Part shown: positions 1-64,000 of the stretch, in pieces
Numbering within the stretch: position 1 is the stretch's first letter
Layout: each line of letters starts with the position of its first letter
Assembly (NCBI GenBank): GCA_003290165.1
Contig: QNQO01000642.1
Coordinates: 558,001 to 622,000, forward strand
Reading direction: 5' to 3'
DNA from: Berberis thunbergii
Lineage: Eukaryota; Streptophyta; Magnoliopsida; Ranunculales; Berberidaceae
Length of the DNA stretch: 64,000 nucleotides
The notes under the pieces: generated by a model
What the model was told of the DNA's origin: nothing
The model's input: the letters and a program-made list of their open reading frames with translations, nothing else
The model's database searches: none
Program-made: the position numbers and the translations under genes

Positions 1-36
1 CAGGCTGAACAACAAAAGCAAATACAAGAGTTTCAG
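1..36 (+). pseudogene. 3' end of a captured exon, gene not recognised
   Basis: The frame reads QAEQQKQIQEFQ and ends exactly at a GTAAG donor at 37. The glutamine-rich stretch suggests a coiled coil. Too little is present to name a gene. It is on the same strand as the other captured exons of this element. Confidence 0.4.
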
Positions 37-1085
37 GTAAGAAATTCACCAGTTTGCATATCTTTCACTTTGGTTACTTCGTCATCATTTCAAACCAGCT
101 GAAAGTGACTTTTATTTTGTCTACATAACCAGTTCTAATCTGTTTCGGTCTGCTTTTTATTTCTTGACCAATGCATACTACTAGCTGTCTTTTCCCCTGA
201 TTCTGTTGTATTCAATTCAAGTGAACTTATTCTATTTAGAATAGCATAATTGTGATTATTGGAGAAACTCTTACGAATCATCAACATGGAAATTACAAGG
301 AAATACGTATAATGTGGTTATGATCTCAAACTGAAACTGCAGCATGGATTTTTTGTAATATTTTTGGTTTTCAATCTGGAATTTTGTTAACTGACAAGTT
401 ATGCTTGATTTGTAGTTGCTATTGCTTTTGCTTTTATTTGTATGGATATATGTTTGGTCAAAAGTTTTCATATATGTAATTGTAATGCATTAACGAGTGG
501 AGCGGTCTAGTAAAATGTTAACATTGCCAATTTAAAATTAACATTTTACTACACTGATTGTATAGTTTGGAGACGATGAGTTTGGCCACATGTTGGTGAA
601 CATACTAAAGAGCAACGAGGTGAATGCTGACGGAGTATGTTATGACAAGGATGCAAGGATGTTGTGAATCCTGACCTCTCACAATTGTTGCAGTTCCAAG
701 AAAAAAGCAATTCTGAGTTGCTTATATTAATACAATTATTAGAAAAATGTTGTATATTTTTTATAATTTGAGAAAATATTGAATTCTGCAGGTCGAATTG
801 TGTTTTGCAAGTGGAGCATAATGGCAAAGAGTCCTGGCAAGGTGCTGTCTTGGCTTGGGACAGAGTTGTTTTGCTCTGTTTCTGTTCAGAAACAGGGCAG
901 CGATGGCTGGAAGGTGCAAGGCGCAGGCGCAGAGTTAAACTATTGTAATGAAGATGATTAGTTATCAACCTATTGTAATGATATTCATTGTGTATTTGGT
1001 GCTTGTTTTTATGTTCTCATGCGGAAGAGTTAAACTTGGTTGTACAATGTAATGATATTCTGATTGATCTATTTTTATGTTGCAG
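37..1085. other. Noncoding stretch of CACTA-1
   Basis: AT-rich sequence with no recognisable protein similarity. A short open frame on each strand around 780-960 has no known motif and is treated as chance. Confidence 0.5.
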
Positions 1086-1223
1086 GATATCTGTGCTTGT
1101 GCTCGGTGTTCAAGCACAGGATCTCTCATTCGTGTTGAGCCAGTGGCAACCATCAATGTTGGAGGTCAACCACTGTCCCCGCCTAGAACTGAAAGATGTT
1201 CCAACTGTTCAGGGGCAGGAAAG
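1086..1223 (+). pseudogene. Captured exon: DnaJ-type cysteine-rich zinc-finger protein
   Basis: A TTGCAG acceptor precedes 1086 and a GTATGA donor follows 1223, giving a 46-codon exon open in frame. It has two cysteine clusters, CACARC near the start and CSNCSGAGK at the end, the latter resembling the CxxCxGxG knuckle of DnaJ/BSD2-type plastid proteins. The linker reads GSLIRVEPVATINVGGQPL. In the family this domain binds two zincs and acts in plastid chaperoning or assembly. Only this exon is present, so no functional protein is expected. The family-level call is fair; the exact gene is not known. Confidence 0.55.
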
Positions 1224-1569
1224 GTATGAAATCCACAAAAAACATTTTTTCTTTTCTTTTCTCACATGTATGTTCAAGAGTGATGTGTTTTTACTGGGTG
1301 TCTGGAACCAATGTTTTTCCATGCTTCTGCCAGTGACGTGTTTAGGAGCTTTCATAGTCTGACAAGTTAATCTTGGAAGGTTGTATAGGATATCATTCAG
1401 ACTGGATGTACATGTTAATCTATTGTGATATTTTTGTTATAGTCTTAACTAGAAGTACCACCTGAGTCGTTCTTTGAAGTATTCATGCTGTTCTACAATC
1501 TTCTCCCAGGCTCTCTCCACCTGAAATTCTATCTATTTTCTTGTTTAGCAAACCATCTATAAATTTTAG

Positions 1570-1664
1570 GTTAAATTGATTGCTTATGATGGACAACTAT
1601 CCTATCCGATAACTCTTCATGCCCTTGTTAGTTTGCCAAATGTTGGTGATGATAGTCGTGTCAG
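1570..1664 (+). pseudogene. Possible captured exon, not recognised
   Basis: A TTTTAG acceptor and a GTTGGC donor bound 95 bp that are open in one frame, including the run KLIAYDGQLSYPITLHALVS. The composition is protein-like and the strand agrees with the other captured exons. I do not recognise the family, and the splice assignment is inferred from consensus only. Confidence 0.35.
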
Positions 1665-2227
1665 GTTGGCAGCTAGTGTAAATTCTTATACCATAACATC
1701 CGACCCTTTATATTTTCCTAACACATCTCAACTCTTCAATTACTTGCTGATATGATGAACCTCTAAACACGGTGTCTGTATTGAAATGTTTCATGTTTAG
1801 ATGGCAAAATAAAGAGTAGAAACAAAGGAATCGTACATAAAAGATAAAAGAGAAGCAAATGAATGCTTCCTTGTTTTCAGCTGTTTTATGCGAGGTTTGT
1901 TGCTGACAAGACATTAGGGAATATAATCTTTGTTTTTAGCATGTAACATAAAAAGTTCAAAGATTTTATGTTCATGATGTCTTCATATAGTCTTAGGTGG
2001 CCACCTCCACTGTGACGACATGAAGGCTCTTGAGGTGTCTCGCCTGGCCTCACGCCTAGATTAATAGATTTTATGAGAGAAAATAGTATTCAAGTTTTTG
2101 ATGGTGAAACGTCAGCACAACTCTTCGGAACTTTTAACAAATCTCTTTCTTAATGCTGTTCTCTGTGGCTGTAATATGTTTTTAAGCTTGTTGCATTTTG
2201 GTAATGATCATCGCCTCTTCTATGCAG

Positions 2228-2386
2228 AAACCATTGGGGTTATTGTCTCTATTGGATGAGGAATCAACTTTTCCTAAAGCCACTGATTTGACCTTTGCCA
2301 ATAAGCTTAAGCAGCATCTAAGCACTAATCTCTGCTTTAAAGGAGAAAGGAGTGGGGCTTTCCGTGTTTGCCATTATGCTGGAGAG
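2228..2386 (+). pseudogene. Captured exon: class VIII myosin motor domain
   Basis: The exon follows a TATGCAG acceptor and ends at a GTTAGT donor, 159 bp or 53 codons with no stop. It contains KPLGLLSLLDEESTFPKATD and ends in VCHYAGE. These are the relay-region and HYAGEV motifs of the myosin head, most like plant class VIII myosins, which are actin motors at plasmodesmata and the cell plate. A full protein exceeds 1000 residues, so this is about 5 percent of one. Flanking exons are absent, so it is a carried fragment. Frame and splice sites are intact. Confidence 0.85.
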
Positions 2387-2784
2387 GTTAGTTCTAGCTT
2401 TTTTTTTTTTTTTTTTTGCTTGGAGTTTTATGTTGCTGTTTGAGTATTTTAAATAAAGTGTAATTTATGCTGCTCATGCTTTTCTGTACTTGACCAAGGA
2501 TTTATATTATGCATTCATAATATGACCATACATTTATTATAGTAGAAACTAAGACAATGGGTCTTACAAAACCAAGTTTAGTATGGAAAAAGATCTTTAT
2601 GTTGGCAAGACTCAACACTTGGCTCCTTTCTTTGCAGGTTAGTATGAACCTTGACAAGGTGGAACTAGATATGCTTGGCACTTGCAAAAAGATAAGCTAT
2701 ACTCTTGAAACTAGTTTTTTTTTCTTCTCCATGTTGACCTAACTTCACTGCAGAATAGGCCATAACATGCGACAGAATTTGCAG

Positions 2785-2860
2785 GTAACTATCTCCAAGG
2801 ATGACAATGTCATTCTTCATGGGGCTGGTGACAAGAAGGCCATTGAGGAAAGATGAGCAG
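2785..2860 (+). pseudogene. Captured exon: mitochondrial chaperonin CPN60, with a stop
   Basis: The exon starts after a TTTGCAG acceptor and reads VTISKDDNVILHGAGDKKAI then EER. That is the apical/intermediate region typical of mitochondrial HSP60/CPN60, the chaperonin that folds matrix proteins. Where the family has a cysteine codon after EER this copy has TGA, a stop, then GCAG and a GTTTGT donor. The exon edges are preserved although the frame is broken. It sits about 400 bp after the unrelated myosin exon on the same strand, as expected of serial capture. Confidence 0.8.
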
Positions 2861-3097
2861 GTTTGTACCGTCTTCTCCTACTTGCGATGTTGTATATTTA
2901 CGGTTTGTCATATGTTGGGTTATGGTTTGGTGTTTAATGGTTCAGTAGTTGTCTTTCTGTTGGATCAATCTAGTTTTTCAGCTTTGTGGCTGCGAGGTTT
3001 GGGGATTATGGCAGCTTTCGCAGTCCGGGAAATGGCGATATTCTGCGAGTCTCTCTGCTGCTCGCAGGGGCAGATGCTGTGTGGTTTAGGCAGAGCT

Positions 3098-3245
3098 CTC
3101 TGCTGATCTGCTGTTGCTGTTCTGCTGATCTGCTGCTGCTGCTGATCCGCTGTTGCTGTTCTGCTGTTGCTGATGCGCGGTTGCTGCGCTGCGTGTTGAT
3201 GCGACGGCTGCGGTGCTATTTTCTGCTGCTGCTGATGCGCGGCTT
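3098..3245 (+). repeat. CTG-rich imperfect microsatellite
   Basis: The stretch is dominated by TGCTG, CTGTTG and GATCTGCTG units on the plus strand. It creates long glutamine- or leucine-rich open frames on both strands that are repeat artefacts. It lies in the intron-like spacer between the CPN60 and TGA exons. Confidence 0.7.
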
Positions 3246-3435
3246 TGTTGCTGCTGGATACATTGCAGTTGTTTTGTCGCAGCGTTGACATGCTGAGATG
3301 CGGCGTCATGTGGTTGGCGCGTGTGTTCGCCGGTTGATTTAGGCACTACGGTGTCATTTCGGGATTTGTCGCAGAAACGCGCGGGTGCCGCGTGTGCATT
3401 GGCAGCTGGTTGGAATGTGACTCTACATGTTGCAG

Positions 3436-4603
3436 ATGGGGACTGCAATGGAGAAGTTGAATGATCTTTTAAGATTTGTGAACCAGGTACGTACATATTA
3501 TAAGGGCACGTTGCTTATTGTGATAACAACTAATTGATATAGCACCATAAAATATATTCTGGAGCATTTTCTTAAATCTTTTAAAGAAGTACTTGCTAAC
3601 AAATTAATCTGATATTCTCAATAATAGGGAACAATTGTTATGATTAGGCATACGAATTCTGCAATCTCATGATAAGTTTATCTATTAATATTGCAGAAAG
3701 ATAATGTTGAATTGAAAAAATGTCAGGACCTTGCAAGACTTTCAACTTGAAGGTTTTAGAGTAGTATGAGCTAGAAATAGTACTTCCTAACACCTGATTA
3801 TTTATTTATTCTCTGTTTAGTTTTTCTTCATGGACCATAATCATCTGAGAAAATGCAAGATACTAAGAATGTTATGCTATTTACAAAAGAAAAATTTAGC
3901 TCAATACTTGCAGACAAAGCCCAATTTAACAGAATAATTGACTTAGATTTACTTAACTTACGGCTTCGTGATCAATTCGCTTTTTCTCAAGACTTCAAAA
4001 ATGTTAACACTTGAATGTAAAGCATTCAAACTGTCATTTTATTGAACTTGTACTTGGTATGTAGTTCAATTCACAAGAGGTATGGCTAAATAATATGACA
4101 AGGGTGGGGGACAGTTTTGGTACAAGCATGAGTAATATTTTACTGTTGAACTCCGAAAGGGTACTTTCTAATGTACTAGGCCATCTTTGGTTGTTGAAAA
4201 CTATTTAGGAACTCTTTTGTAAATCTGTTGGTGAAATGTTGTTGTGTTATGTCAGATTGTCTGATTAACTATTGAAAATACTGATTGGTGGCTCATCATA
4301 TTCAAGCAGTAATAAGAGGATCAAATAGTCAGGTTTTTGCATATAGAAATTTCCCTTTGAACTAGCAACTCCCTTCTTTCAGCCATTATCTTCTTAAACC
4401 CCCTTTGGTTGTAATTTGGCTGATTCTTATTGGTTATTGATGCTGAACAGGCAGACAGCCTTCGCCATATGACCTTGCAGCAGATGGCTAAAATCCTTAC
4501 TACCCGGCAGGCAGCCAGAGGCTTGCTTGCCTTGGGGGACTACTTCCAGCGCCTTCGGACCCTAAGTTCAATCTGGTATGCTCGTCCTCGTGAACCAACC
4601 TGA
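3436..4603 (+). pseudogene. Captured two-exon 3' end of a TGA-type bZIP transcription factor (DOG1 domain)
   Basis: Exon 1 (3436-3486) reads MGTAMEKLNDLLRFVNQ and ends in phase 0 at GTACGT. A 964-bp intron ends in AACAG. Exon 2 (4451-4603) continues ADSLRHMTLQQMAKILTTRQ and ends SSIWYARPREPT plus a TGA stop. This is the conserved C-terminal DOG1/glutamine-rich region of TGA bZIP factors, which bind as-1 TGACG elements and NPR1 or glutaredoxins. The C terminus is complete with the family's usual ending. The DNA-binding bZIP half is absent. The intron is retained, so capture was of genomic DNA, not of a reverse-transcribed message. PERIANTHIA or the TGA9/10 group are possible sources. Confidence 0.88.
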
Positions 4604-5344
4604 TAAAACTCAAAATGTACAAGTTTCACTGTCTTAAACAATAGGAATTATACCTCATCAGCAACGATGATGTTTTAAGCTTAAAGGAATTCTCTTGCAT
4701 CTAGAATGCTGCGTAATCTGAGCTGCTGAATATTCTGAAGCCGTCTCTGATGAAGGAGACAGAGTTGTACATATGAATCTTTGTAGAAGAGGAAAAATCA
4801 TGGCAGGAGGAGCAGCTCCAGCACCCAAGCAGGATGAGTTGCAGCCGCATCCAGCCAAGGATCAGCTGCCTAACATTGCTTATTGCATCACCAGTCCACC
4901 TCCATGGCGCGAGTTTTTTTTTTTTTTTTTTTTTTGTTGTTGTAACATGGTTAATTGGTTTAGCTGTTAGCTGGAAATGGATCTGAATTCCACATCTTCA
5001 ATTTGAGTTCTCTTTGGGAATTTGACAGTTACCAATCACAGATTTACAGCTCCAAATGTTTGCTTTCTAATTATTAGTCTATCTCAGATTGTATTATCTT
5101 TCCAATTATTGTTTACTTAAGTGAAACCTAATTGCCTATTTGGATGATCATCTCAATTTGTTGGTCTTCTTCTTTAGTAATTCTGGTCGTATTAATTCCA
5201 CTTATTGATTATTCTCAAATGTGCATGTATTCTCAAAGTAAAATTAACACATTAAAAACATAATCTTCTCTTTATTATATGTTGTTTAACTTCAAAAATA
5301 CTTCTAAAACAATTTTGACTCAATGACTCAAAGTCATTTGATAG
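4604..5344. other. Noncoding spacer in CACTA-1
   Basis: This may include 3' UTR of the captured TGA gene. There is a long T run near 4914-4935 and otherwise AT-rich DNA. No supported feature was seen. Confidence 0.5.
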
Positions 5345-5345
5345 G

Positions 5346-5376
<31 letters not shown>

Positions 5377-5397
5377 TATTAAAAAAAAAAAAAAAAA
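5345..5397. repeat. Long poly(A) tracts
   Basis: Two A runs are separated by a short AT stretch, directly before the subterminal repeat array. They may be a retroposon tail or slippage; no target duplication was identified. Confidence 0.6.
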
Positions 5398-5808
5398 TTT
5401 GCTACGGTTTTAAACCGTGGCTAACTATCACAACGGCTCAAAACCGTGGCTACATTGCCACGGCTTAAAACCGTGGCTAAAGTTAGCCACGGTTTAAAAC
5501 CGTTGCTACTTAATTAGGCACGGTTTAGAACCGTTGCTATTGTCCACACCTTATCACGGCTTGAAACCGTGGCTAATCTTGCCACGGCTAAAAACCGTTG
5601 CTACCTTCTTAGCCACGGTTTAAAACCGTTGCTAATATCTACACCTTGTCACGGCTTAGAATCGTGGCTATTTTTTCCACGGCTTAGCAACGGTTTATGG
5701 CCGTTGCAACAAATTTCGCGACGCCTCTGTAGCCAACGGCTCTTAGCCGTGGCAATGGGTTACGCCCACGGTACAGAACCGTTGCTAAAGGGGGTTTTTG
5801 GTGTAGTG
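5398..5808 (+). repeat. CACTA-1 subterminal palindromic repeats and type-1 terminus
   Basis: About 12-15 units of CCACGGNTTNAAACCGTGG and the variant with AACGG/CCGTT recur at short spacing, ending in the terminal GGTGTAGTG. In CACTA elements such repeats bind the TnpA protein. Each unit is a near-perfect inverted repeat, so the array can fold into hairpins. Confidence 0.85.
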
Positions 5809-6215: not shown

Positions 6216-6225
6216 TAATATTTTT

Positions 6226-9337: not shown

Positions 9338-9389
9338 TGTGTGTACCACAAAGAAGGCAGACTCAACACCAATGACTGCAAAAGTCCGA

Positions 9390-47035: not shown

Positions 47036-47043
47036 GCGCCAAA
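47036..47043 (-). promoter_or_regulatory. E2F-type site at the inner type-2 end
   Basis: TTTGGCGC on the minus strand matches the plant E2F consensus TTTSSCGC. It lies about 525 bp inside the terminus, between the subterminal array and the polypurine minisatellite. The same octamer is at 53900-53907 and 55598-55605. Function is inferred only from consensus and position. Confidence 0.45.
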
Positions 47044-47084
47044 ATAGCTCGCCCAATTTTTTTTTCAGCTTTTCATGTAGCCAT

Positions 47085-47568
47085 GGTTTTGAGCCGTTGC
47101 TAGAGCTAGCCACGGTTTAGAACCGTTGCTAATTTTTTTTTGCAACGGTTTTGAGCCGTTGCTAGAGTTAGCCACGGTTTAAAACCGTTGCTAAATTTTT
47201 TTGTTGCAACGGTTTTGACCCGTTGCTAAATCTAGCCACGGTTTAGAACCCTTGCTACATTTTTTGTTGCAACGGTTTTGAGCCGTTGCTAGATTTAGCC
47301 ACGGTTTATAACCGTTGCTAAATTTTTTTGTTGCAACGGTTTTGAGCCGTTGTGAATGATGCCCACGGTTTGGAGCCGTTGCTACTATTAGCCACGGTTT
47401 TTAGCCGTGCCAACTATACCAACAGTTTTAAACCATGGCCAGGTTGTTTTTTACCCACGGTTTTAAGCCGTTGGTACTTATAGCTACGGTTTCTGGCCGT
47501 GGCAAATACACCAACGGTTTAGAACCGTGGCCAGCTCGGCATAGCTAAACAGCCCATTTGGTGTAGTG
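47085..47568. repeat. Inner CACTA type-2 subterminal repeats
   Basis: At least 14 units such as GCAACGGTTTTGAGCCGTTGC and GCCACGGTTTAGAACCGTTGC, spaced by T runs, lead to the end CTAAACAGCCCATTTGGTGT then AGTG. Confidence 0.9.
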
Positions 47569-47742
47569 AATGCAAATAAACTTTGTATTATTTTCTCATT
47601 AACTGCATATAAGATAAATAAAAAGATGCAAAATGCAATAACCTTCATAAAAAGCTTGCAAATTTTACAACAAAGCAGTTGATTTAGAATGGAAAAATGT
47701 TCCCAAACATAATTTAAGTCTATAGATACTTGCACTTAAGCT

Positions 47743-49463: not shown

Positions 49464-51127
49464 TTCTATCAATGACATTATAGATATTAACCATTATCAA
49501 ACAAAAAGAAATAAGAAACAACTATATACACCACATTTATAGATAATTTCCTTCCACAACATATCACCACAAATAGATTTTTATAAAGCATTCGAAAAGC
49601 CAATCTGAATACATAGCTACAAAGCTTCCCTTTCCCAACTCAAAAGTCAAAATAAAAACAAAGACAAAATAATTGGTCTCAAACAAAGAAAAAATAATTG
49701 GTCTACAAAGCTTCCCTTTCCCAGAAACAATTATCACTCACCTCACACCAATAGTAAAACCAACCAGAACTCATTTTTGAAAGTCATCATCATGAATTCC
49801 ATATGCCAGAGGTGTTTACAATCACCTTAAAAAATCCTAACACCAATCATCCTACTTTGAATACCACTGGTTACATCAAAAATACATGTTTTGGCATGGT
49901 AAGTGTTTTAAGTGGGGGTCTAGTGTTACATAAAACTTTTGCATGTTCAATCATGTCCCCAGAATTGATGTGAGGAAACCCCAAAGGAGGGGGGCATACC
50001 AAGTTACGTGTAAAATGGAACACATAGCAGGAGGAGTCACTATTATATTAGCCCCCCTCCCCTATTATATTTTTCTCTTTGCCCTGCTCTCACATGGTTT
50101 CAAAGACCATGCAGATGTTTTTATTTGTTCCCCAAGCATCTTTGAGCTATAAGACTTCATGTGAAGCCCACATGGCACATTACCTTGATGAAAATACCTA
50201 ACTTTTAGGGTTGTCAATTGATCGGATTCAAATCGTATATCCATATGTTTGGCTCAAATTTTGGTAACACGTTATTAGATAAGATTCTTATATTCAAGAA
50301 GGTCAAAGCCAGGTTTGTATATAGATGATGATTATTTTTTTAAAGAAAAGAGAGAGTTTATATATATATGAAGCTTGGCTTCAACCTATGGAATTCTTGG
50401 AATATTAAATACATTTTTAATCCAAAATTTTCATTTGCCACTCACAAATTAAGGATAGGAAGCGGACCTCTAAGTCACTAGAGTTTACAATGCTAGTACA
50501 TATTTAACTACTAATCAGCAGTTGGAGTACATGTGCATCACGAAAACTACTCCGACCTCTTTTCCATCTATTGGAAGAAAAACATCTTAAGCGTATGACC
50601 TAGTTATAAAGATGATTAAAACAACTGAATTGTTGCCTACGAGCAAAGCAAGCATGGGCATCATGGTAGAAACTCATTTTGATCTTAGCTTGAATGTCTC
50701 AGGGCTATCTCCAAAGTTTTTAAGGAAATTCATTTATGTTTACAATGGGGCATACTATAATTCATCTTTTGTTTTAATAGCCATGTTTTCGTTCCAAAAG
50801 TTATACTTGCATCCAACTTTGATAAATATGAGAACTTTGATCAATGAGTAAACAAAAGTACACACTTCAAATAAAAAATATCAACCTACTACTTTTTTTC
50901 CACTACACCATGTCACATACATATTTCTTTCACAATATCAACATCAGATTAGATTCTTATCAGACCAAGTGTTGTGCTAGATCCAAAAATGTTACTCATC
51001 ACAAATTGAACCCTAAACTTGAGTTTCAGATTGGGTTTAACTAGGATGAAGGACTGGTCCTCCCTTTGAAAAGCCTACCTAGAATAATAGAAGAGATGTA
51101 ATAATTACCTAGACATACTAGGGGAGA
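49464..51127. other. Outer CACTA between the TnpA-like gene and the solo LTR
   Basis: AT-rich DNA without a recognised exon. A TnpD-like gene would be expected in an autonomous element, but I see no trace of it here. Confidence 0.5.
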
Positions 51128-53046
51128 TGATATTCACATAATTATTACATAATATATCCCTTAATTTATACATGTTAGTGTTTCGATTATTATATTTATA
51201 GTAATTATTTCGTTTTAATGTCTTTGTAGGAATTTGAGCGTAAACGATGAAATCATATTAAGGCGACAAGTTAAGGAACGACAATTAGTCGATTCCAATG
51301 GTGGTATAAAGTAGTCACAAACCTAAACCTGAAACCTAATTCATAACCTAAATCCAAAACCTAATTCATAACCTAAACCCAATCCATAACCTAAACCCAA
51401 ACCTAATGCCAAGCCCAATCCTTCTCCTACCCTCATTGATGAATCATTCCCTCATTTCATCACTATTCATCTTGATAAGTTTTTATAAATAGAAGATAAT
51501 AGGGTGGAAAAGAGGGGAGGAGGAAGAGAAGGGAAAAGAAGAGAATTAGAAAAAAAATCATAACCTCTTCCTCAATGGAGATTTCCTCAAAGGAGTTCCT
51601 CTCCCAAGTGATTCTCACAATCACCATCACCACCTAACCATCTCTCATTCACTCAGCAATCACCCCCACGCCACCACCATCACCCTAGCACCACCTCCAC
51701 CTCCAGACAGCACAACCGCCACCGCCACCACCGTGAAACAGAAATGTGACAACCCTGTTTCACGTCAAACCTTCACTCTGCCACCGTCCCTGTCCCTCTC
51801 CCTATCCATCATCCATCACCTCCGCCACCACCTCCGCACTGACCACCGTCACAGACCGAGAACCAGCACGAGAATCACCTCGCGAAACAGAGCTCACCGC
51901 GGCTCTGTTCCGCCACGCCACATACCCTGCTCCTCTTCTTTCTCGGCCTCCCTTCATCTCGAGCTCCTTTCTACCTCCATCTCTCGCGACCACCGTCACG
52001 ACCAGACCGAGAATCACCGCCACCACCTCGCGAGACGGAACCAGCAAGCTGAAACAGGGGGACTCCTGTTCCTCATTTTTCTCATCTATTTTCTCTTTTT
52101 GGTATTTCCTCACCTTCTCTCTTCTTGCGCAGGTTCTGGAAGCATTTTGGAGGTCGAGGACGATCGCGAGGAGCGAAGGAAGGCCGCGAGAGCAGCGCTG
52201 TCACGTTGGAGACGAAGGCTTCCCTGTAGCGCTACTGTAGCAGAGGCGAGAATTGGTCAATTCGGTTATTTGGCTATTCACACCCCAGCTATCAGTAAGA
52301 TCCACCACAGAGTGCTTTTGACCAGTTTTCCCGGGATTCATGTTCGGACCACCTGCTGATCTGCTGAGTGCCACCACATCGAGTTTGTGACAAACTAAAT
52401 GGGTTGTATAAGTTATTTTGATTTATTTTACTGAATTGTGTGCGTAATTGTTAATTACAATTTATTTCTGAATTTTTGATAATTTGCTTTCACCTTGCAT
52501 GTTCGAGAAATTAAACTTGATATGTTTGGTAGTTAGAATTACCTTTTATCAATATTCAAAGCATGTGCTAAAAATATTAAGCTTAAACTTTGATTAAGTG
52601 TGCCCTAAAAAGACACTTAATACTTGGTAAGAGCGTATTTGCTTGAAATAATTTGTTAATGTTTGAAAGAAACATGATATAATTTGAATTAGATTTTAAC
52701 GATCACATATTCGGTGTAAGCAAGGGATTCTCATTCCTAACGCTTCTCATTTTTAAATTCAGTAATTTAGATTTAAATAATTTTGCTAACTAATTGGTGA
52801 GTCCAAGCCCACAAAAATTCATCTCATCTATCTTTTATTTTTCTTATTTTAATTTATTTTTAGTTTAGATTTAAAAATGCTGTAACCCCATTTTCTCTAA
52901 ATTAAATTTTAAAATTCAATTTAATCCACCTTCCTCGTGGGATCGACCCGTACTTGCCGTTGTCTACCAGTTAGACACCGTGCACTTGCGGTTATTACAA
53001 GTGGGCTGAATTAACCTATTAATTTAGGTTAGTTAAACTCGCATCA
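51128..53046 (+). repeat. Solo LTR in the outer CACTA
   Basis: It starts TGATATTCACATAATTATTA and ends AAACTCGCATCA, with flanks GGAGA (51123-51127) and GGAAA (53047-53051), a 5-bp duplication with one mismatch. Same family as 13935-15919 and 24298-26257. An open frame at 51733-52359 is serine-, proline- and arginine-rich LTR sequence with no known domain. Confidence 0.88.
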
Positions 53047-53689
53047 GGAAACAGTGACTTAGGTAGCTCTAGTAGTTAGTTCAATGTCTTATCTCTGTGT
53101 GGTAAAGTCCTGCATATTGTTAAGGTTGATATATGTGATGAGAAGAGAAACTCCTCTTCTCTTCAGCAAACTGCCAAGGGAGGGGACCCTTTTGAGTTGG
53201 TGTTTTGTATTGGGGATCCAAACACCATAGCAAACTCAAACTCACTCTTCATCTAATAGGGGATCATTTACCTGACGACACTGCACATTACAACCACTAT
53301 GATTATAATACAAGTGAACAGGGAACACGAATATTTCCTGGTTTGAAATTATATCAGGAATTTCATACAAAAATTAAAGATTCAAAAAATTAAATTATAT
53401 CAGAATTTTTCAGGCATACGGTTTTGAGCCCTAGAGATTCAAACCCTAATTTCAAAAAACCTCTAAATAAAACCTACAGATTCAAAAAACAATTCAGGAA
53501 CCCTAGAGATTCAAAACCTCTAAATAAAAAAACTCTAGATTCAGGAACCCTAATTTCATAAAAAAGAAACCAGAGAGAGAGTACCTGTACGAGAGAATGG
53601 TTTGGAGGTTGCAGTCGCTGATCGATTTTGCAAATGGTTTGGAAGTTGAAGACGCAGAGTAAGGAGGGAAGACCAGGGAAGGAGGGGAA
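53047..53689. other. Outer CACTA between the solo LTR and the polypurine array
   Basis: Noncoding. It includes short direct repeats of AGATTCAAAAAACAATTCAG type (AACCCTAGAGATTCAAA occurs several times, 53420-53560). Confidence 0.5.
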
Positions 53690-53890
53690 GAGCAGGGAAG
53701 TCGAGGGAGGAGGAAAGGAGGTAAGTTGAGGGAGGGAGCAGGGAAGTCGAGGGGAGTGAGCAGGCGAGTAGAGTAGAGTCGAGGGAGGGAGGGAGCAGGG
53801 AAAGAGGAGCTTCGAGTGGAGTGGAGGGGAACAGAGAGGGTCGATGTCAAGTTGAGGGAGCAGGCGAGTGGAGTCGAGTGGAGGGAAGGT
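53690..53890. repeat. Outer CACTA polypurine minisatellite
   Basis: GGGAAGTCGAGGGAGGAG-type units, homologous to 46805-47035. This shows the array is an ancestral part of the type-2 end. Confidence 0.8.
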
Positions 53891-53899
53891 GGAAGTCGA

Positions 53900-53907
53900 G
53901 CGCCAAA
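53900..53907 (-). promoter_or_regulatory. E2F-type site at the outer type-2 end
   Basis: TTTGGCGC on the minus strand, 364 bp inside the terminus, in the shared context GAGCGCCAAAATAG found also at 47034. Inferred from consensus match and conservation of position. Confidence 0.45.
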
Positions 53908-53939
53908 ATAGCCTGCCCAATTTTTTTCATCTTTTTAGT

Positions 53940-54271
53940 GTAGCCACGGTTTTGTACTGTGGCCAAATTTTTTTTTTTGCAACAGTTTTGAGCCGTTGCT
54001 ACTAATAGCCACAGTTTTTAGCCATAGCAAATAAACCAACGGTTCTGAGCCGTGGCAATTGTTTTAGCCACGATTGTAGGCCGTTGCTAATTATAGCCAT
54101 GGTTTTTTGTCGTGGCCAATAAACCAACGGTTTTCAACCGTGGCCAGTTTTTTTTACCCACGGTTTTAAGTCGTTGGTCATTATAGCTACGGTTTTTTGC
54201 CATGGCAAATAAACCAACGGTTTAGAACCGTGGCCATGTCGGCGTAGCTAAACTGGCCTTTTGGTGTAGTA
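53940..54271. repeat. Outer CACTA type-2 subterminal repeats
   Basis: About ten palindromic units with more mismatches than the inner array, ending GGCGTAGCTAAACTGGCCTT then TTGGTGTAGTA. Confidence 0.88.
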
Positions 54272-55229: not shown

Positions 55230-55575
55230 CACTACACCAAAAGGCTTGTTTAGCTACGGGGAGGTGGCCACGGCTCTAAACCGTTGGCTAATTTGCCACG
55301 GCCAAAAACCGTGGCTATAACGACCAACGGGTTAAAACCGTGGCTAAAAAAAAGTTGCCACGGCCAAAAACAGTGGCTAACTACCAACGGTTAAAAACCG
55401 TGGCTATAACGAGCAACGGTTTAAAACCGTGGCTAAAAAAAGGATTACCAAGGCCAAAAACCTTGGCTAAATGCCAACGGTTTAAAGCCGTTGCTAAGCT
55501 TTTGTTTTTCACGGTTTGGCTTTTGCAAAATTTTTCAAAACGTTTTAGCTTAGCAAAAGTCAAAACCGTTGCAAA
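55230..55575. repeat. CACTA-4 type-2 subterminal repeats
   Basis: Units such as ACCAACGGTTTAAAGCCGTTG and GCCACGGCCAAAAACCGTGG repeat about eight times. The open frame 55340-55717 through them is a repeat artefact. Confidence 0.85.
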
Positions 55576-55597
55576 CCTTGGCTTTTGCAAAAAAAAA

Positions 55598-55605
55598 TTT
55601 GGCGC
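55598..55605 (+). promoter_or_regulatory. E2F-type site at the CACTA-4 type-2 end
   Basis: TTTGGCGC on the plus strand, 368 bp inside the terminus, after an A run as in the other two type-2 ends. It is in the direction of the captured exons. Confidence 0.45.
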
Positions 55606-56756
55606 TTTGGAGGGAGCCGTTTTGTTCAAGCTGGCGAAAAGAATTGAACAGAAGAAGCTGGCGAGGTGTTTTGTTCAAGTGTTCGTGAGGTTCGCGAGGT
55701 GCTTGAAGGCGAGGTGAGTTTCTTGAGTTTCGCGAGGTGTTTTGTTCAAGTTGGCGAGGTGAGTTCGCAAGGAAAGAGTAAGGAGAAAGTTTTGTTCTTC
55801 ATCAGGTAACAAATAAAGAATGTTTGTTTATTGTTCTGGTTGTTTGATTCGTTTAGTTTGATTGGTAGATGAAGTGTCCGGGGTTTTGAAGCAAGGGAGT
55901 GTTTGGATTTGTGGTTAGAAATGTTGGGTGTTATTCAATTTCTGATTTTTATGTGTTTCAAGTTTGAAGGGATGTTAGTCAGATTTGGGGTTTAAGTTAT
56001 TAGGAAGGTTTGGGTTTTGATGAGTTTATTGATTTTGAATAAATGGGGTTTCAGATTTGTGGTTATTGATGAGTTAGAGATGTTGGGGTTTTGTTCAATA
56101 TGCGAAAAGTTGAGATTTTGAAGGTCAGATTTGGAGATTTCAGTGGTTAGGAAGCTTTGGGTTTTGATGGGTTTAGCGGTTTTGAATTAATGGGGTTTCA
56201 GACTCGTGGTTATTGACGAGTTAGAAATGGTGGAGTTTTGTTTATTCTGCAGAAAGTTGGGATTTTGGAAGGAAGAATATCATCTTTGGGGATTTTGGTG
56301 GTTGAGGGGTTTGTTCATTTGGGGTTCAATACATATGGTTGTTGATTTGTTTCAGTGTTTTGAAATGGACTATTTGGTTGCTTGTTGTTTGTGTTTAGCA
56401 CAATGAGGTGATATGTTTATTTCATAGTTGGTTTTAGGGGTTTTCAATGTAGAAATTTGGTGTCTTTGAAGGTTGAGGTTTTGAGGATTTTGTTTCAGTT
56501 GGGTTTAACAATTGTTTGCTTATTTACTTGTGTAATTTAGGGTTTTGAATAGTTTGATTTGCGGCTTATCTTAGTTGAGAAATTAAGGGTTTGCATGGTT
56601 GAGGGATTTGATTTGGTTTTGGCTATTGTTCAACTTCATGATAAAAAAAAATGATTGGTTGTTTATGTGAAATTGGGGCTTTTTGTATGTTGTTATTAAC
56701 TTCAAAGTACTTTATCCAATGATACAAATCTAAGCTTGGAGTTTAAAGAATAAAGA
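55606..56756 (+). other. CACTA-4 leader region
   Basis: GT-rich noncoding DNA that may be promoter, 5' UTR and first intron of the element transcript (for example GAGGTGAGTT and CAGGTAACAA could be donors near 55710 and 55805). No protein motif. The GT-rich, stop-rich composition resembles the 5' region of a host gene and could have been captured with the F-box exon. Confidence 0.4.
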
Positions 56757-56975
56757 ATGGCATTGTCAATAACTTGCCCCAATAAGATGATGGATTTTGA
56801 TATTGATGAAGGGAAAAAAGTATATGGCGTAGTTAGGCGCATGGGATCAATGGGGAGGAAGCGAGTGGAACCATTGTGTCTCTACTCCCCTTCTAAAACT
56901 CCATTGAAGAATCCATGTCGTGCGAGGAAGAGCTCGTACATGTCAATGTTGGAGAGGCTACCAGAAGACTTATTG
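56757..56975 (+). pseudogene. Captured F-box gene first exon (FBS1/SKIP27-like)
   Basis: ATG at 56757 opens 73 codons to a TTG/GTAGGT donor. The product reads MALSITCPNKMMDFDIDEGK, KVYGVVRRMGSMGRKRV, SPSKTPLKNPCRARKS and MLERLPEDLL. The KRV and TPLKxxC segments before an LExLPxDLL F-box start are the layout of small plant F-box stress-induced/SKIP27-like proteins, which join SCF ubiquitin ligases through SKP1. The rest of the F-box is absent, replaced after the intron by an unrelated exon. This is the only captured exon here that keeps a natural start codon. Confidence 0.75.
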
Positions 56976-57086
56976 GTAGGTATTATGATGATTTTTTCTT
57001 TTCCAAACTAAAAAACTATGTTGTCTACTTTGATTGATTGTGAGTTATTACAGAGCTCTGGCTAATATTTGTTTGTTATATTTCAG

Positions 57087-57889
57087 ATTAGAGTTTCTGT
57101 TGTTTGTAACCAAGTGGTGTCAGACAATTGAGCAAATGGAAGATCAAGTTTCTGTTGTTCTCGAGGAAGAAAGGTTATTATTGTCTCATACCTGCATTTT
57201 CTCTACTTGTGAGTTTTTTTTGGTGTTATTTGAAAATAAAAGTTCCATATGTTTGCAGGGAAGAGAGAGCTTTAAGAAAAGCTGAAATGGAGGCAACAAA
57301 GGTTCGTTTTATTAGTGGGCTAATGTAAAAACTTTGATACACAAATAATTTTCGAAGTTATGTCTCTTGCAAATCTTTTGGCCCATTCCTTTGTGTCCAA
57401 CTTTGCAAGTTGGTTTATATTGTGGAGACAAAATTATCTTTTGGTTCTTTTTATTCCTCACTAGTGTGCACGGCTACAGCTGCTCCTGTATTTAAGATAT
57501 CAAGGGGAGTCAAATAATAATCTGAGAATCACCCATAATGAATAGTGTGTTAGTCTATGAACTCTAATATGTTTTACTAAGTGTTCATGTTCTTGTATCA
57601 TGAAGATGTGCATTTTCTTTTTACAGGCCTCTGTTGGAAACAACAAAATGGGGAAGGAAGTGATCAGTGCCCAGCAAGCGGAAGATCTCAAAATGAAAGA
57701 AAAGCGAAGCGGGAGCGAGAGGTTTCATAATTTTTCCCTCTAGTTTGTTTCATTTCTGGATGCTTGTTACGACATAAATGTTGATTATGTGGAGGCACTA
57801 CTTTTATGTAGAAAAACTTGCCACGAAAGAAGTGTCGTAGGCTAGAAGCTGCTCAAGAGATGGAGGACGAAGGCGATGACATAAAACAG
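57087..57889 (+). pseudogene. Captured four-exon fragment, gene not recognised
   Basis: Exons 57087-57173, 57259-57301, 57627-57721 and 57812-57889 have consensus splice sites. The first three join in one frame: KWCQTIEQMEDQVSVVLEEE, then REERALRKAEMEATK, then ASVGNNKMGKEVISAQQAED and LKMKEKRSGSE. The fourth reads LPRKKCRRLEAAQEMEDEGD. The product would be a charged, helix-rich, probably nuclear protein segment. I cannot name the family. Confidence 0.5.
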
Positions 57890-59056
57890 GTTTGTTTTAT
57901 CATCGCTTTTGCAGATGCATTAACTGAATCATATTCCTTGTTGGTGGGGAGTTTGTCTAGAGTCATTAAGTACGTGGACACTGAAAAATTGCAGGGTGGA
58001 CACCGTGGTAAGAAAGAGAAAGAATTATATCCAAGCGAAAGTTCATTGCATTTGATCTATGTGCTTTGTGAGATAAAAGTTCATTGCTCATGTAAGGTTT
58101 TATTTGCAGCTACAAGTGAAAGTAGCGGTGACAATTATTTTGCATCTTAACGCTCCTATACCCATAGCTTCAAAGTGACCAAAATCAACCCTCATTTTCA
58201 TCGGGTTTCATGTCCTTGGTGCCAAGCTCTTCATCCATTGCTAATTTATTCTGCAATCACCAACTTTTGTGATGTAGACCCATATCTGCAGCCAGGTATT
58301 TAAGATCTAGAATGAATAAACATCTAGAATGAATAAAGTTAAGTCATCTACTTCTTATAGAAATATAGTATAGTCTTTCTTACAATCAAAACCTGGTGGA
58401 GTAAAAGAAATTTGATGTTTGATTTGTTATGAGAGTTGCCTCCATTATGTCTCTCTGCATGCACCTTAAGTATATCCAAAAAAACCTTTTCTTTTAGCTC
58501 AGCTGAAAAATTCCGATCGAAACTATTTGTGTATTCTCCTGCATATATACTTTACTAGTTTGTCTATCATGTCTTGAAACGTATATACATTACTAGTTTG
58601 TATGATGTCACTGTTTCAGAGAGACCATGTGGCACTATTGTCTGCATTTTCAGAGATAACGAATGACTATTTGTATAACTCGCTTGCATGTATGCCAATA
58701 ATTTATTTATATTTTTTTTATTGCTCTTTTTTTTTCCAGAACCTGAATATTCATTTCATCTAAAATGTTGATCTTGGTGAAATGCTCACTAAAATTTCCA
58801 CAACAATTATGATTATTTAGTCTAAACCAATTTTTATTAATTAGAAAACAGAAATGCTTAAAACAAAATGAAAAGTTGCATATGAACCGTAGCTCCATTG
58901 AAATGTTTAAAGACCAAGCAATTTTATCTGTGAGAGTATGCACAACAAGGAACTAATATTTTTCTGTTTTGGAAATATCTGAAGATTTACTACTATGATC
59001 TCTGTATTGCTCATTGTTCAATTTGGCTAAGTCTTTCTTTTCTTTTCTATTTTAAG
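57890..59056. other. Spacer in CACTA-4
   Basis: AT-rich DNA. No supported exon; an 18-bp direct repeat (ATCTAGAATGAATAAA..) lies near 58308-58337. Confidence 0.5.
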
Positions 59057-59214
59057 GTATGTGTGTATAAAGATGGAGAGGTTATTATAGATACTGCTGC
59101 TGGCGTGCTTGGAAAATATGATCCTCGTCCTGTTCAGCCAGATAGCTTATTTTCTGTTTTCTCAGTAACAAAGGGAATAAATACAGGAATGTTACACTGG
59201 CTAGTTGACAATGA
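59057..59214 (+). pseudogene. Captured exon: ABC1K/beta-lactamase fusion protein (ABC1K11 type)
   Basis: TTTTAAG acceptor, GTATGT donor, 158 bp open in frame: VCVYKDGEVIIDTAAGVLGK, YDPRPVQPDSLFSVFSVTKG, INTGMLHWLVDN. This is the start of the beta-lactamase-like domain of the plant ABC1 kinase/beta-lactamase fusion (Arabidopsis At5g24810 type). SVTK is the serine-x-x-lysine active-site motif of the serine beta-lactamase/penicillin-binding family and is kept. The rest of the fold is absent. The two-domain protein is a predicted atypical kinase of organelles. Confidence 0.88.
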
Positions 59215-60423
59215 GTATGTTACAGTTTCCAGTTCTCCCTAATTTCATTTTGATCCCTTTCTTTTTTCAAGTTTAGTGGTTCCACTACCAAGCTTCGTTT
59301 AACAAGAATTTAACAAGAATACAACTGAAACTTTGAAAATAGTAAAGCATGCATCAGCAAAAAATCTTTTCCTAGAGCATGAAGGTTTGATTCAACTATA
59401 TAAAACGAATTATAAGTAGTTGGGAAGGGCATTTGAGCACATCCACTGTAAAAATAGTTGCTTACCCATCCTTGTCTGACAGGTTTTGTATTTATCTTTT
59501 TGTAAACTCTCCATGATCACCATATAGTTTTTTGAGGATTTATTTTAGGAATTCGTAAATATATGTTATGTGTTTCTTAATGTGTAGGAAGCTCCAAGCC
59601 AAGATTTATTTATCTTCTTTGTTTCTAATGTTGCTACAAGCACAATTGATTATGTCAAAAGCTTCCTAGATGAAAAGTATGATTATTGCTAAGAGATAAG
59701 TTTGCATAACAATTGATTATTGCTGGTTTTATGGCTTTTCATTAAAAGAGAAATCAAAAGTTTGCATAAGTGGTGTTGTTGTGGTATGTTGTATGTAGTT
59801 AATACTATATGATCTTTTGCTACAAGGAGTTAAGTTTGGAAATGATGAATACAAGAAAAGTGGTAAGCTCTATCTATCCTTTCTCGTTTTCTGACTTCTT
59901 TTCTTATACAACCAATTCCCAAAATATGACAGAGAGTGAAATAACAAGAAGTTTGAAAATATGACAATCTGATATTATGTACAAACTCACTCACCATTGT
60001 TACTACTAGTCCCATCTTTTGTATAGTTTTCATGCCCACCACCCCACATGGCATTTGATTTTTATCACTTTTTAAACCATTTTTATCCTTTGTCTGCATG
60101 GGCAGATTCGCCTGCTATCATTCTGCAGTCTTCTTATGCTTCAAGTTCAAGCACTGCTGACTAGAATGGACGGACACCATCTTCTGAATTGGAAGATGTG
60201 GAATCTGGGGATGATCTCGGAACTTCCTCCCATGCTGAAAACATTCCTAGTTCAGGATGTGAGAATGCTTCTGTATACATGCATAACGTAGCAGGTAAAA
60301 GTGGTATGTGATAATAAATTAACCCTAAAAAATCTGCTCTCAGTAATTCTATATGTTTATATTGGAGCATTTTATTTGCTTCGTAATCTTTAGATACCAG
60401 CTCTTGTCTTTACTGCTTTTCAG
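59215..60423. other. Spacer in CACTA-4 with a possible decayed exon
   Basis: A plus-strand stretch near 60165-60295 reads PSSELEDVESGDDLGTSSHA and ENIPSSGCENASVYMHNVAG. It could be an upstream exon of the next fragment; a stop precedes it. Otherwise AT-rich. Confidence 0.4.
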
Positions 60424-62374
60424 GACATTTGAGTTCATCTAGGATTCCACTTGAAAGAAGGTTTGATGGTGCTCATTCTATTCAGTTTCCAAGCACATCT
60501 GTTTGGTATGAACTTCACATCCCGAGCGGAAACATCGGCAGCGTCCAAGAAAATTTCACTTTTTATGACCGCCAAAATGGTACTGAAGCCATCGCTAGAA
60601 AATCGACAGAGTCGAAGTTGGATGTCTGTAACTTGCTCAAAGACGACATCAGTGGTGGAAACCTAGTTTTTCCTGATATGCATCTGCAGACATCAGTTTC
60701 TCAAGGACTAGTTCAGGTTTGCTGTCATCTCACGCTCCTTTAGATGATTTGTTGTTCTCAAGAGTTAGCAAATTTCAAAAGAGAATCTCATCTACATTTG
60801 CATTGATCTAATCTAAAAGGGCCCTAAAGCTTCTATTATGGTGTTATCTCAGTGTGTAAGATAATGGAGTGTTGGAAGAAAAAATTTGTAAATGGAAGAA
60901 GGTGCAACATTTGTCAAATTATATGAAAGGATGAATTTTCTTTGTTCAGCTGATCCCATATAAACTGATATAAACTTTAATTATGATTACCACCCTAGTT
61001 GTCAAGCATTGTAATCTCAGAATTCATTCTATACACATTACATTCTTACTAAATCAGTCTTCACTGAACATATAATCTTTGCAGTTGTTATCAACTTTAC
61101 ATGCAGGGTCTTGAAAAATCCATAGCATGGGATGGTGAAGGAGCAGTGTGCTTGATTGAGGTATTGTATTACCAAAACAGTTCTTAAACACAAAGCATGT
61201 TCTTTTATACACTTTGTTGTGTTGAATGTTTTTTTATTTTGCCCCTTCAATGTTATATCTTGAGTTTTGCATTGCATTTGGCATGATGACTAGTCATTAG
61301 CTAACAAAATAAATAGACAAGCAACTTATTACGCGAATTGATTCGGTTCTTTTCATCTATCTATTTCTGAGAATTTTGGTTCTTTTCATCTATCTTGTGT
61401 TGGTTGAACCCGAAAAAGTATGAAGTATAATGGAGGAATGCTTAAGCTCCATGTTTTGACATACTTTGGCACTAAATGCTTAGAATATAATGCAAAAGAA
61501 TAGGTAGTTATTAACATTGTGGAATTTTAGAAGGTGAGTATAGGAAGAAGAATATTATAAGAAGAATTTTTAGTTGTTACAAGGGTATGATTAATTTTCA
61601 GTTGCAAAGCACCAAATTATTATAGGGTGGATTTGGGATGCTTTTTCAGTATATGAAACAGAGATGTATACCCTGTTTTTTGCTGCAACAAAAAACAGAG
61701 AATGCTCTGGTTTCGAGCTTTGTTTTGTAGAGTGTTTGGAGTTTTCTTTGAGGCGTTTGGTGGTCTCTTGGCTGTGGTTTGTAATGACAGAGTTAGGATG
61801 CAGTAAGGACCTATTTTCCTAATAAGATTCGAGGGTGGGTTTGCTTCAAAACTTCTGACTTATGTGTTGGTTTATTGATTTTTTATTTGTGATTGTGGTA
61901 TTTTATTGTATGGGTTTTGTATTTGTGATTGTTGCATTGACTGGATCAGTTTGAGTCTTTTATTGTTTAAAGGGTTTTCATAATCTGATCCATATTGTGA
62001 ATTGTTGAGGGACTTGCCCAATGATGTTAATGAAGCAATGTTGACATTGATGATTTTTGTGAGAAGGTAAAACAACAGATATCTTCATCTTGCCTGCATT
62101 TGTGCATGATTTCTCCCTTGGTCTTGTTCTCACTTTAGCTTGATTGTTGTCTCAGGCACAACTTGTTAACTACATCCAGTATAGAGCTCTGCTGGAGGGA
62201 TGGACTTCTCGTATGTGGACAAAATATATGGGCGTTTCTAATATGGAAGACTCAGAATCCTTGGATGGTCTTAGAGGTCAAATCTATGATCATCTCCATG
62301 ACCAAACAGCAGGATTCTATGGCTGCCGCTCTGCAGCAGAACCAATTCATGTCCAACTGAATCTGGCAACAAAG
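60424..62374 (+). pseudogene. Captured three-exon fragment, gene not recognised
   Basis: Exon 60424-60716 includes SSSRIPLERRFDGAHSIQFP, SVWYELHIPSGNIGSVQENF and DISGGNLVFPDMHLQTSVSQ. Exon 61107-61160 reads [18 protein letters not shown]. Exon 62156-62374 reads [40 protein letters not shown] and [14 protein letters not shown]. All splice sites fit the GT..AG rule and phases are compatible from GLE to AQL. The coding quality is high, with no stop in about 560 bp, so the capture seems fairly recent. I do not recognise the protein. Confidence 0.6.
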
Positions 62375-63399
62375 GTACCATTTATTTATTAGGAAGCAAC
62401 TCTAACACCGTGAAGACATGTTTCCTCATTTGTTTTCGAAAAAAAAAAAGTTATTTATCATTGACTAGCTGCATTTTCTGGATGTGATGGCTTGGCTGAT
62501 AAGATTTATCTTGTCGATTGAGAATGCAAGTGCTATATTACATAGTCTCCCCTATTTCCCTGATGTCGATCTCATCCTTCGGAATGCCTCTTAAGGCTTT
62601 TTTTCATGCCTATAATCCTCACCTATAAACTTTTATTAATTGTTGTTTTCTTTTTATAAGCCTATGAATGCAATGTTTTAATATTCTCCTCTAGCCTTTC
62701 ACTAAAGGCATGCCTCTCGACTGCATGACCATATATAGTTGATTCTCTTTATTCTTTCATATAAATTAAAACATACACTACTAATTACTCTCATTGCATT
62801 TAAATACATCCACCTAGTTCAAATGGCATGTCACAGGTCAAGGTAGTAAAACTGATCAGAACCCGATCGGTGTAACCAGTCAGGTGGGTCAACCTGAAAT
62901 GACACGGAAATACAAAAACTTATGACCTGAACTCATTTATATCGAGCCAGTTTTGATTGTGTTATCGTGTTCTGATTCTACCCTGACCTGACCGGACCTG
63001 ACCATTGGTAGGGCCAGGATTGAAAGATGGAAATGATTATCTACATCTGAGTTCTGCTCAAAATATTTGCATATACGTGTTTTTGCAAAGATCTGTTCCA
63101 TGCTCACGGAGTTGGGATTCTTACGATTCTCTTACTGTATTATATGAATGAGCTTGAGTTGGCTAGAATATGTCTCATTAGTCCATAGTGTGGGACTTGA
63201 CAACCCTGTTTTGACTGAGAAAGCATGTTAACAGTAGTACATGAACATATTTATAAAAAATCTACATTTCCTTAAATTTCTATGCGTTTGGTTGCTATGT
63301 TCTTATGTTTGTGTTAAGCTGTAATCTGGCAGCTAAGTTGATTTTGAAGTATTTTACACAAGCTAAGCATAGTTATGGTCATGGTTTTTTCACTCTCAG
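62375..63399. other. Spacer in CACTA-4
   Basis: AT-rich intron-like DNA with no supported feature. Confidence 0.5.
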
Positions 63400-63486
63400 G
63401 TTCAGAGCTGCAACTTTGAGGAATTTTTCGCCCCTGAATTGGATAAACATGGTTATCAAGCTCTCTACAAGAAAAAAACAACAGAG
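63400..63486 (+). pseudogene. Captured exon: CCR4 deadenylase
   Basis: CTCTCAG acceptor, ACAGAG/GTTGTC donor, 29 codons: VQSCNFEEFFAPELDKHGYQ then ALYKKKTTE. This is the block after the LQEV catalytic motif in the endonuclease/exonuclease/phosphatase domain of plant CCR4 proteins, the deadenylases of the CCR4-NOT complex that shorten mRNA poly(A) tails. The usual VQxDHFEEFFAPELDKHGY is nearly intact; DH is changed to CN. Other exons may lie beyond the window. Confidence 0.88.
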
Positions 63487-64000
63487 GTTGTCTTATGAAT
63501 TTATTTGTTCTTAAGAGTTTTTTTTTCTGTGGAATTTTGTTGTTATTTTTTAACTTTACTTTTGGATCTTGTTACTCTAATTAGCTAGAGCTCGATGTTG
63601 ATCACTAGGGAGAGGACCCAAACTGGCACCTACATCAATTTTATTTAAAATTATATCTTTAACCTTAATGAAGTATTGGATATTGAAATTTTGGAGCCTA
63701 TTTGATTGTCTGATGCTTCAGTGATATCATTGAAGGACAGGCAAAAGGATCATAAATGATCGATCCCTCAAGATTTCGTTGTTTCATTTCAATGTTTTGC
63801 AAATGTGGATTGCATATTATTGCTTGTTTCCGTGATTGCACCCATTGGCAAAGACAAGCTAGGTCTATGAATGTCCCTTCAGTTTGGAAGATTTGATTTT
63901 GTATGTTTAAGAATTGTTGATTTCTCTTCATTTATTCTACCATGTCATTCTCATGTGTCATGGCTGTTTTACAGATTTTCAAGTGAAACAATTATACTTG
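63487..64000. other. Right margin, intron-like DNA
   Basis: It could be the intron following the CCR4 exon. ATTTTACAG at the very end (about 63967-63975) could be an acceptor leading to an exon that leaves the window. Confidence 0.35.

Follow-up and report, generated by a model that had tools for sequence, protein, structure and literature searches.

Captured gene pieces share a single orientation in sampled elements of a high-copy CACTA transposon family of Berberis thunbergii

The 64,000-nucleotide stretch of Berberis thunbergii DNA analysed here (assembly GCA_003290165.1, contig QNQO01000642.1, positions 558,001 to 622,000 of the forward strand; hereafter the window, C642:558001-622000, C642 being the contig that carries it) contains four CACTA transposons with pieces of host genes between their ends. 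In these four elements, and in 27 further elements with the same ends, the recognisable captured pieces have a strict polarity, which we regard as all but certain: they read from one class of transposon end (type 2, the 5′ end) towards the other (type 1, the 3′ end). Judged from its sequence, the interior of an element is a mosaic of host gene pieces, both exons and introns, read in this direction. We interpret the elements as a high-copy, mostly non-autonomous En/Spm-like (CACTA) family in which each element would form one sense-oriented spliceable unit and a filter admitting only sense inserts would shape the contents; we hold this account to be evenly balanced between right and wrong.

All four window elements are flanked by matching 3-bp target duplications (4/4). 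Two of them run past the borders of the window. The complete CACTA-1 occupies C642:554962-563808 (8847 bp), with its type-2 end (L001:6962) to the left of the window and GTA on both sides, and the complete CACTA-4 occupies C642:613230-623583 (10354 bp), with its type-1 end (L002:1583) to the right and GAC on both sides. CACTA-3 is nested inside CACTA-2 in identical orientation. Terminal inverted repeats of CACTA elements start with CACTA, and CACTACACC-type termini are present at 8/8 ends, with variants at 33193, 47568, 54271 (TACTACACC) and the distal end of CACTA-4. Subterminal repeats, in the form of repeated AGCAACGG/GCCACGG-type units, lie inside those window ends that were read. A preliminary description of this DNA had placed two classes of ends at the positions listed in Table 1, and had CACTA-1 and CACTA-4 opposite to CACTA-2 and CACTA-3. 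Both statements were confirmed, with slightly different end letters; the type-2 end at 47568 reads CACTACACCAAATGG..TTTAGCTATG.

The ends are abundant in the 2.24-Gb genome. A 13-base end motif, CACTACACCAAAA, occurs 14295 + 14208 times, compared with 123 + 113 times for the reversed pattern, and a stricter type-2 end pattern occurs 1229 + 1206 times, compared with 0 for the reversed one. To extend the window, 27 elements were picked on contig C1 as motif pairs resembling single elements of ~3.5-14 kb; because they were chosen by motif at both ends, they carry CACTA-type ends by construction. Their ends belong to the same two classes as those of the window, and 3-bp target duplications match in 23/27 (mismatch in L018, L025, L027 and L030). 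The resulting sample of 31 elements from two contigs (four from the window and 27 added) is a part of the family and not the whole. Element orientation was assigned from the end motifs alone. One element, L030, failed the end-typing script and was omitted from the open reading frame test (n=30); it was later typed by its type-1 end for the tests of base skew and shared blocks (n=31).

Stop-to-stop open reading frames (ORFs) were collected from 30 elements, excluding the terminal 600 and 800 bp and any ORF crossing the border of a fetched piece. The 300 longest ORFs per strand (sense ≥70 codons, antisense ≥67 codons) were searched for Pfam families (two batches of 150 per strand, E≤0.001). The sense strand, reading from type 2 to type 1, yielded 27 families in the first batch (25 displayed) and 13 in the second, two being found in both, whereas the 300 antisense ORFs yielded none in either batch (0 + 0). 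This was the protein search for strand bias that the preliminary description had proposed, and on these 30 elements it came out as predicted there. At E≤0.1 the antisense strand gave 23 families per batch (best E 0.0076 and 0.0012), little more than the ~15 per batch expected by chance, and these were scattered and mostly implausible for a plant; the second sense batch gave 62 families at this threshold. The 36 distinct displayed sense families comprise two element genes, Transposase_24 (in two sense ORFs) and DUF4216, which we take to be a transposon-associated family, and 34 host-like families. Two of these possibly derive from a single ABC-transporter gene, and one or more (UBP8 among them) fall below the curated cut-off. 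Among the host-like families are K+ transporter, neutral invertase, YTH, RdRP, EF-Tu GTPase, myosin, O-fucosyltransferase, HSP90, SNF2, PP2C and peptidase M18. Together with an isoamylase 1 exon they place host gene exons between the transposon ends, as in Pack-type CACTA elements.

The same polarity was observed without homology search. On their sense strand, plant introns are rich in T. The mean T-minus-A skew of the sense strand was positive in 31/31 elements. When 30 elements were divided into 600-bp bins (n=2270), 1213 bins were above +0.10 (T-rich) and 30 below −0.10 (A-rich); 200-bp bins of 30 elements gave 963 T-rich against 245 A-rich. Donor and acceptor motifs were commoner on the sense strand in 10/10 cases, 8/10 at p<0.05, with 83 sense against 20 antisense copies of CAGGTA and 32 against 5 of AGGTAAG. 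Translated ORFs compared across elements gave 374 sense-to-sense matches and 0 sense-to-antisense matches. Internal blocks of ≥100 bp shared between elements keep their orientation in 87/88 cases, the 87 same-orientation blocks being distributed over 60 element pairs. The lone opposite block (187 bp, L008 against L027) was rejected as an antisense match: it lies inside a palindromic stretch of L008 and has no orientation, because this 621-bp stretch matches its own reverse complement. The stretch itself (L008 element positions ~2207-2827, 94% to its own reverse complement, also matching L027) looks like a foldback insert or one resembling a miniature inverted-repeat transposable element.

It is exceedingly improbable that the polarity is due to chance or to an artefact of end typing. 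The ends were typed by a scripted motif, which failed for L030; for L014, both ends of which were first read as type 2, the left end was used. However, L030 typed by its other end is also sense-skewed (0.14), and 0 antisense families against 27 + 13 sense families, with skews in 31/31 elements, are not expected by chance. The Pfam strand counts, the 31/31 skews and the 87/88 blocks bear out the earlier argument that strict polarity would be improbable under random capture.

Motifs near the type-2 end suggest that an element may be one transcription unit starting there. Donor-like motifs of the form [CA]AG/GTA[ACT] were counted 450-1500 bp inside the element ends of 30 elements. Inside the type-2 end there were 23 motifs in 19/30 elements, compared with 7-8 motifs in 6-7/30 elements in the control settings (antisense at the same end, or either strand at the other end). 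Some leaders are common to groups of elements and others were seen once in the sample; a leader donor resembling that of CACTA-2 is also present in C3, L003 and L036. TnpA-like exons were found in 5/30 elements, on the sense strand in all five. If the element drives a spliced transcript and a filter on it passes only sense inserts, this would be in keeping with the donor-like motifs, with sense content rich in introns and with TnpA-like exons on the same strand. According to this account, new pieces would be acquired after excision, when gap repair aborts and switches template, the donors being genes and other elements of the family, and inserts that are not both sense and spliceable would be removed. 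We propose that removal occurs because antisense gene DNA would break processing of the element transcript and yield RNA complementary to host mRNAs. Selection on the captured proteins themselves was also considered and rejected: substitutions per codon position in sense ORFs of ≥70 codons, not all of which are verified exons, were 2,5,3 / 3,2,3 / 9,4,5 for three pairs of copies; the numbers are small and show no excess at third positions.

Several elements differ by exchanged modules, some of them recent. Element C1 is a chimera, L019-like up to 6432 and L015-like from 6434. The shared backbone of L011 and L014 shows 26 substitutions over 5749 aligned bases, and the two elements are otherwise set apart by blocks of 709 and 1179 bp. 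When the L014 junction was used as a query (40 of 344 candidate places scored), eight places including L014 were uninterrupted and many others broke exactly at the junction. At this site (element position 5355/5356) copies with near-identical flanks have at least six alternative fillings; eight of the broken copies were read in part. L011, L043, L044, L046 and L048 are filled by 457-709 bp with filler repeats, the inserts measured in broken copies being 709, 709, 696 and 457 bp between these flanks. L045, L047, L049 and L050 have the same left junction, filler and module followed by a different continuation: one rejoins the element downstream, one enters an L019-like part and two enter an L004-like module. 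At the left junction a short filler repeat is present two or three times, and the pieces identified in the fillings are all sense. The simplest reading takes the empty site as ancestral, because the alternative needs exact loss at both borders. Filler-bearing non-homologous junctions are characteristic of gap repair that aborts and switches template. As read from these junctions, the fillings are products of recent non-homologous template switching. The abortive gap repair mechanism is credited to Rubin and Levy in PMC8978399. Such joins need no homology, and orientation is therefore not preserved automatically. The site with its alternative fillings offers a natural series for the study of template switching.

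Relatives of the inserted modules identified here occur in other family members and are already in sense there. Since modules are common to several elements, the four window elements are less independent of one another than the preliminary description implied. It is nevertheless improbable that a few original sense captures were simply reshuffled by homologous, orientation-keeping exchange between elements. Modules are widely shared, as the 87 same-orientation blocks demonstrate, and the isoamylase stretch is present in at least 40 places in the genome at 97-100% DNA identity (among the matches listed, the window included). However, each of the 34 displayed host-type families would need a first capture of its own, all of them sense, and the recent exchanges have non-homologous junctions.

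Capture itself might instead be directional, taking only transcribed genes and only in sense relative to the element's 5′ end, a view we regard as possible although doubtful. The element would then be a self-assembling gene, with a promoter and first donor at one end and foreign exons stacked behind them, assembled by transcription-linked, one-ended gap repair. In one version, which we consider unlikely, a broken end would invade, for example, an R-loop or nascent-transcript bubble and copy the displaced coding strand, giving pieces of one polarity and only from transcribed genes. Interiors that are genic almost throughout, with the excess of T-rich over A-rich 600-bp bins described above, are consistent with such copying, as are newest module changes that are already sense. 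No direct trace of an invading strand was seen, however, and the modules at the L014 site are related to other elements rather than to any shown gene.

Three DNA searches for parental genes listed 78, 81 and 40 matches, from which L041 and L042 were taken as candidate parents. Neither was retained: L041 looks like DNA between another type-2 end and an ORF of the long interspersed nuclear element (LINE) type, and L042 resembles a short element of the CACTA-4 family. Among the matches listed, the end regions of both candidates align with the ends of many elements, on both strands. At L041 1466-3292, DNA homologous to part of L009 directly abuts a type-2 CACTA end, and its other flank has a LINE-like endonuclease ORF, named by eye; a match in C1449 stops at the same query position as the L041 match.

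The polarity could also arise from orientation at insertion, if elements inserted mostly in sense into introns and tandem neighbours formed a hybrid carrying the gene piece between them; we give this a low probability. A hybrid model for Pack-CACTA elements was reportedly put forward by Catoni et al. in 2019. PMC13317346 describes the hybrid-element model, and most local Pack-TYPE pairs share one orientation (12/15 hAT, 12/13 PIF; PMC8903248). Both orientable nested insertions seen here, CACTA-3 in CACTA-2 and one beside gene-like DNA in L041, are sense in sense. These are just two cases, however, and the gene-like DNA of L041 is perhaps what is left of an element. Moreover, the junctions that were read carry filler DNA and not old element ends, and a relaxed end motif gave no inner end inside the 31 elements.

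We return to the sense-only filter, which in our judgement has an even chance of being the main cause of the polarity. Several observations weigh against it. The proposed transcription unit is based on motifs, and the 450-1500 bp region in which they were counted can include captured introns. A filter against premature polyadenylation is not clearly supported, AATAAA being hardly rarer in the sense strand (167 against 194 in the reversed control; antisense 434 against 462). The searches for parental genes identified no parent among the places read (L041 and L042), and the orientation of a recent insert may be inherited from other elements. Finally, even the newest module changes are sense throughout, contrary to what a slow selective filter predicts. 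No recognisable antisense pieces were found even in very young copies, and the filter would therefore have to act early. The preliminary description had offered selection for sense splicing, or capture tied to transcription, as the cause. Its polarity and its argument from random capture stand, and its reading as a whole is partly supported: the first cause would fit the donor-like and splice motifs and the same-strand TnpA-like exons, and the second would fit the rarity of antisense-skewed DNA (30/2270 bins of 600 bp).

Within the window, the formal host-gene matches in CACTA-1, CACTA-3 and CACTA-4 are all sense (Table 1), in agreement with the direction originally described for the captured exons. 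For CACTA-2 the sole sense evidence by homology is a weak poly(A)-binding-protein match, of which no single stretch was significant in phmmer and which was without match in a Pfam scan, together with the TnpA-like exons. The latter were named from their position and their relatives, because the window ORFs there have no Pfam match. PF03004 and PF13952 are present among the sense ORFs of the sample, and in a protein homologue search the TnpA-like ORF of L034 had a single match, labelled 'hypothetical protein'. The PF25242 piece of CACTA-3 scores 24.3 bits, below the curated cut-off of 27. When sense ORFs of the window were scanned singly, 9/10 and 8/10 had no Pfam match up to E 0.05. Pieces named by eye were not counted if unmatched; these were an HSP60-like piece and AAA-ATPase-like pieces (no PDB match), and PSA2-like and TGA-factor-like pieces (no Pfam match).

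Table 1. Transposons and features in the window (positions are those of the window)
Feature	Position	Strand	Evidence or remarks
CACTA-1, 3′ part	1..5808	sense +	type-1 end at 5808 (−)
Captured myosin-head exon (CACTA-1)	2225..2392	+, sense	PF00063 E 1.7e-12; PDB myosins, best E 3.1e-9
CACTA-2	33193..54271	sense −	type 1 at 33193 (+, diverged), type 2 at 54271 (−; first base T); target duplication TTA; interrupted by CACTA-3
Possible captured poly(A)-binding-protein-like exon (CACTA-2), weak	34697..34882	−, sense	phmmer to 6r5k_D, E 0.0064
CACTA-3	37278..47568	sense −	type 1 at 37278 (+), type 2 at 47568 (−); target duplication AAT
Possible captured UBP8-like ubiquitin domain exon (CACTA-3)	40111..40167	−, sense	PF25242 E 2.4e-5
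Captured isoamylase 1 exon (CACTA-3)	41580..41729	−, sense	phmmer to 9j60_A, E 1.7e-24
Donor-like site CAG/GTACTATC (CACTA-3)	46783..46799	−	0.8 kb inside type-2 end
TnpA-like exons (CACTA-2)	47849..49380	−, sense	tblastn; common to L025, L032, L034, L038
Donor-like site CAG/GTACTC (CACTA-2)	53577..53595	−	0.7 kb inside type-2 end
CACTA-4, 5′ part	55230..64000	sense +	type-2 end at 55230 (+)
Donor-like site CAG/GTAACAA (CACTA-4)	55798..55812	+	0.6 kb inside type-2 end
Captured beta-lactamase-domain exon (CACTA-4)	59057..59215	+, sense	PF00144 E 4.6e-9

A block of CACTA-2 at 51170-53050 has an antisense-like skew and includes an ORF of 269 codons on the + strand (51550-52356) that has no Pfam match; by eye the ends of the block resemble long terminal repeats (LTRs), and it is perhaps a later insertion of the solo-LTR type. 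The DNA between CACTA-1 and CACTA-2 (5809-33192) is retrotransposon-like near 8-9 kb, again judged by eye. An Rfam scan of the window gave nothing at gathering score.

None of the families displayed for the 600 ORFs was Transposase_21 (25/27 families being displayed in the first sense batch). Elsewhere in the genome, at least 150 Transposase_21 (TnpD) matches were scored of 7809 candidates, unlinked here to the two end types, many of them in near-equal open frames of about 769-798 codons. Autonomous CACTA elements of some family are therefore probably present, and the near-equal frames suggest that such families were recently active.

Gene capture by CACTA elements is well known. The one-way orientation in the sample implies a strong bias in capture, in survival or in both. 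The family combines tens of thousands of end motifs, a defined polarity, very young copies and paired empty and filled sites, and makes it testable whether orientation is set at the time of capture or by later selection. If the polarity is family-wide, exon shuffling by this transposon would be directional, with better odds that captured exons come to lie in usable chimeric transcripts.

Helitrons transpose by a different chemistry, without terminal inverted repeats and without target duplication. Maize Helitrons resemble the family described here in that many gene fragments were captured stepwise (PMC3288121). CACTA gene capture is also reported in Chenopodium (PMC8978399) and lettuce (PMC8195511). 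The Tpn1 family of Ipomoea nil likewise consists of non-autonomous CACTA elements with conserved ends and subterminal repeats, in which host genic DNA replaces the interiors, and some captured regions are transcribed into chimeric RNAs; its copy number is estimated at 500-1,000, compared with ~28,500 end motifs here (PMC5105172). No statement of strict polarity was found in the part of PMC5105172 covered, and no mention of the 13-base end motif in the openly licensed literature searched. The parallel with soybean Tgm elements drawn in the preliminary description is a fair one. Tgm-Express1 of Glycine max contains five unrelated gene fragments with introns, which are in one orientation because all are processed as exons of one transcript; it is, however, a single element, and its transcription is driven by the host F3H1 promoter (PMC1947982). 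Pack-CACTA and other Pack-TYPE elements of Arabidopsis, rice and other plants also carry chromosomal DNA between transposon ends, and aberrant events between neighbouring elements have been proposed as the route of capture (PMC8903248, PMC13317346). The orientation of non-autonomous Pack-TYPE elements is hard to define (PMC8903248), whereas here it is defined by two end classes. The words orientation, antisense and polarity are absent from the main text of a 2026 review (PMC13317346), and no such CACTA polarity was found in the parts covered of the openly licensed literature on captured-fragment orientation, which is not proof that none has been published. Cactavine-5 of grapevine is a CACTA element carrying captured PPR gene sequence, and this piece is opposite to its transposase, an exception to sense-only capture (PMC2528002). 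Sense-only capture is therefore no rule of the CACTA superfamily, and the strictness of the polarity in the Berberis family appears to be new.

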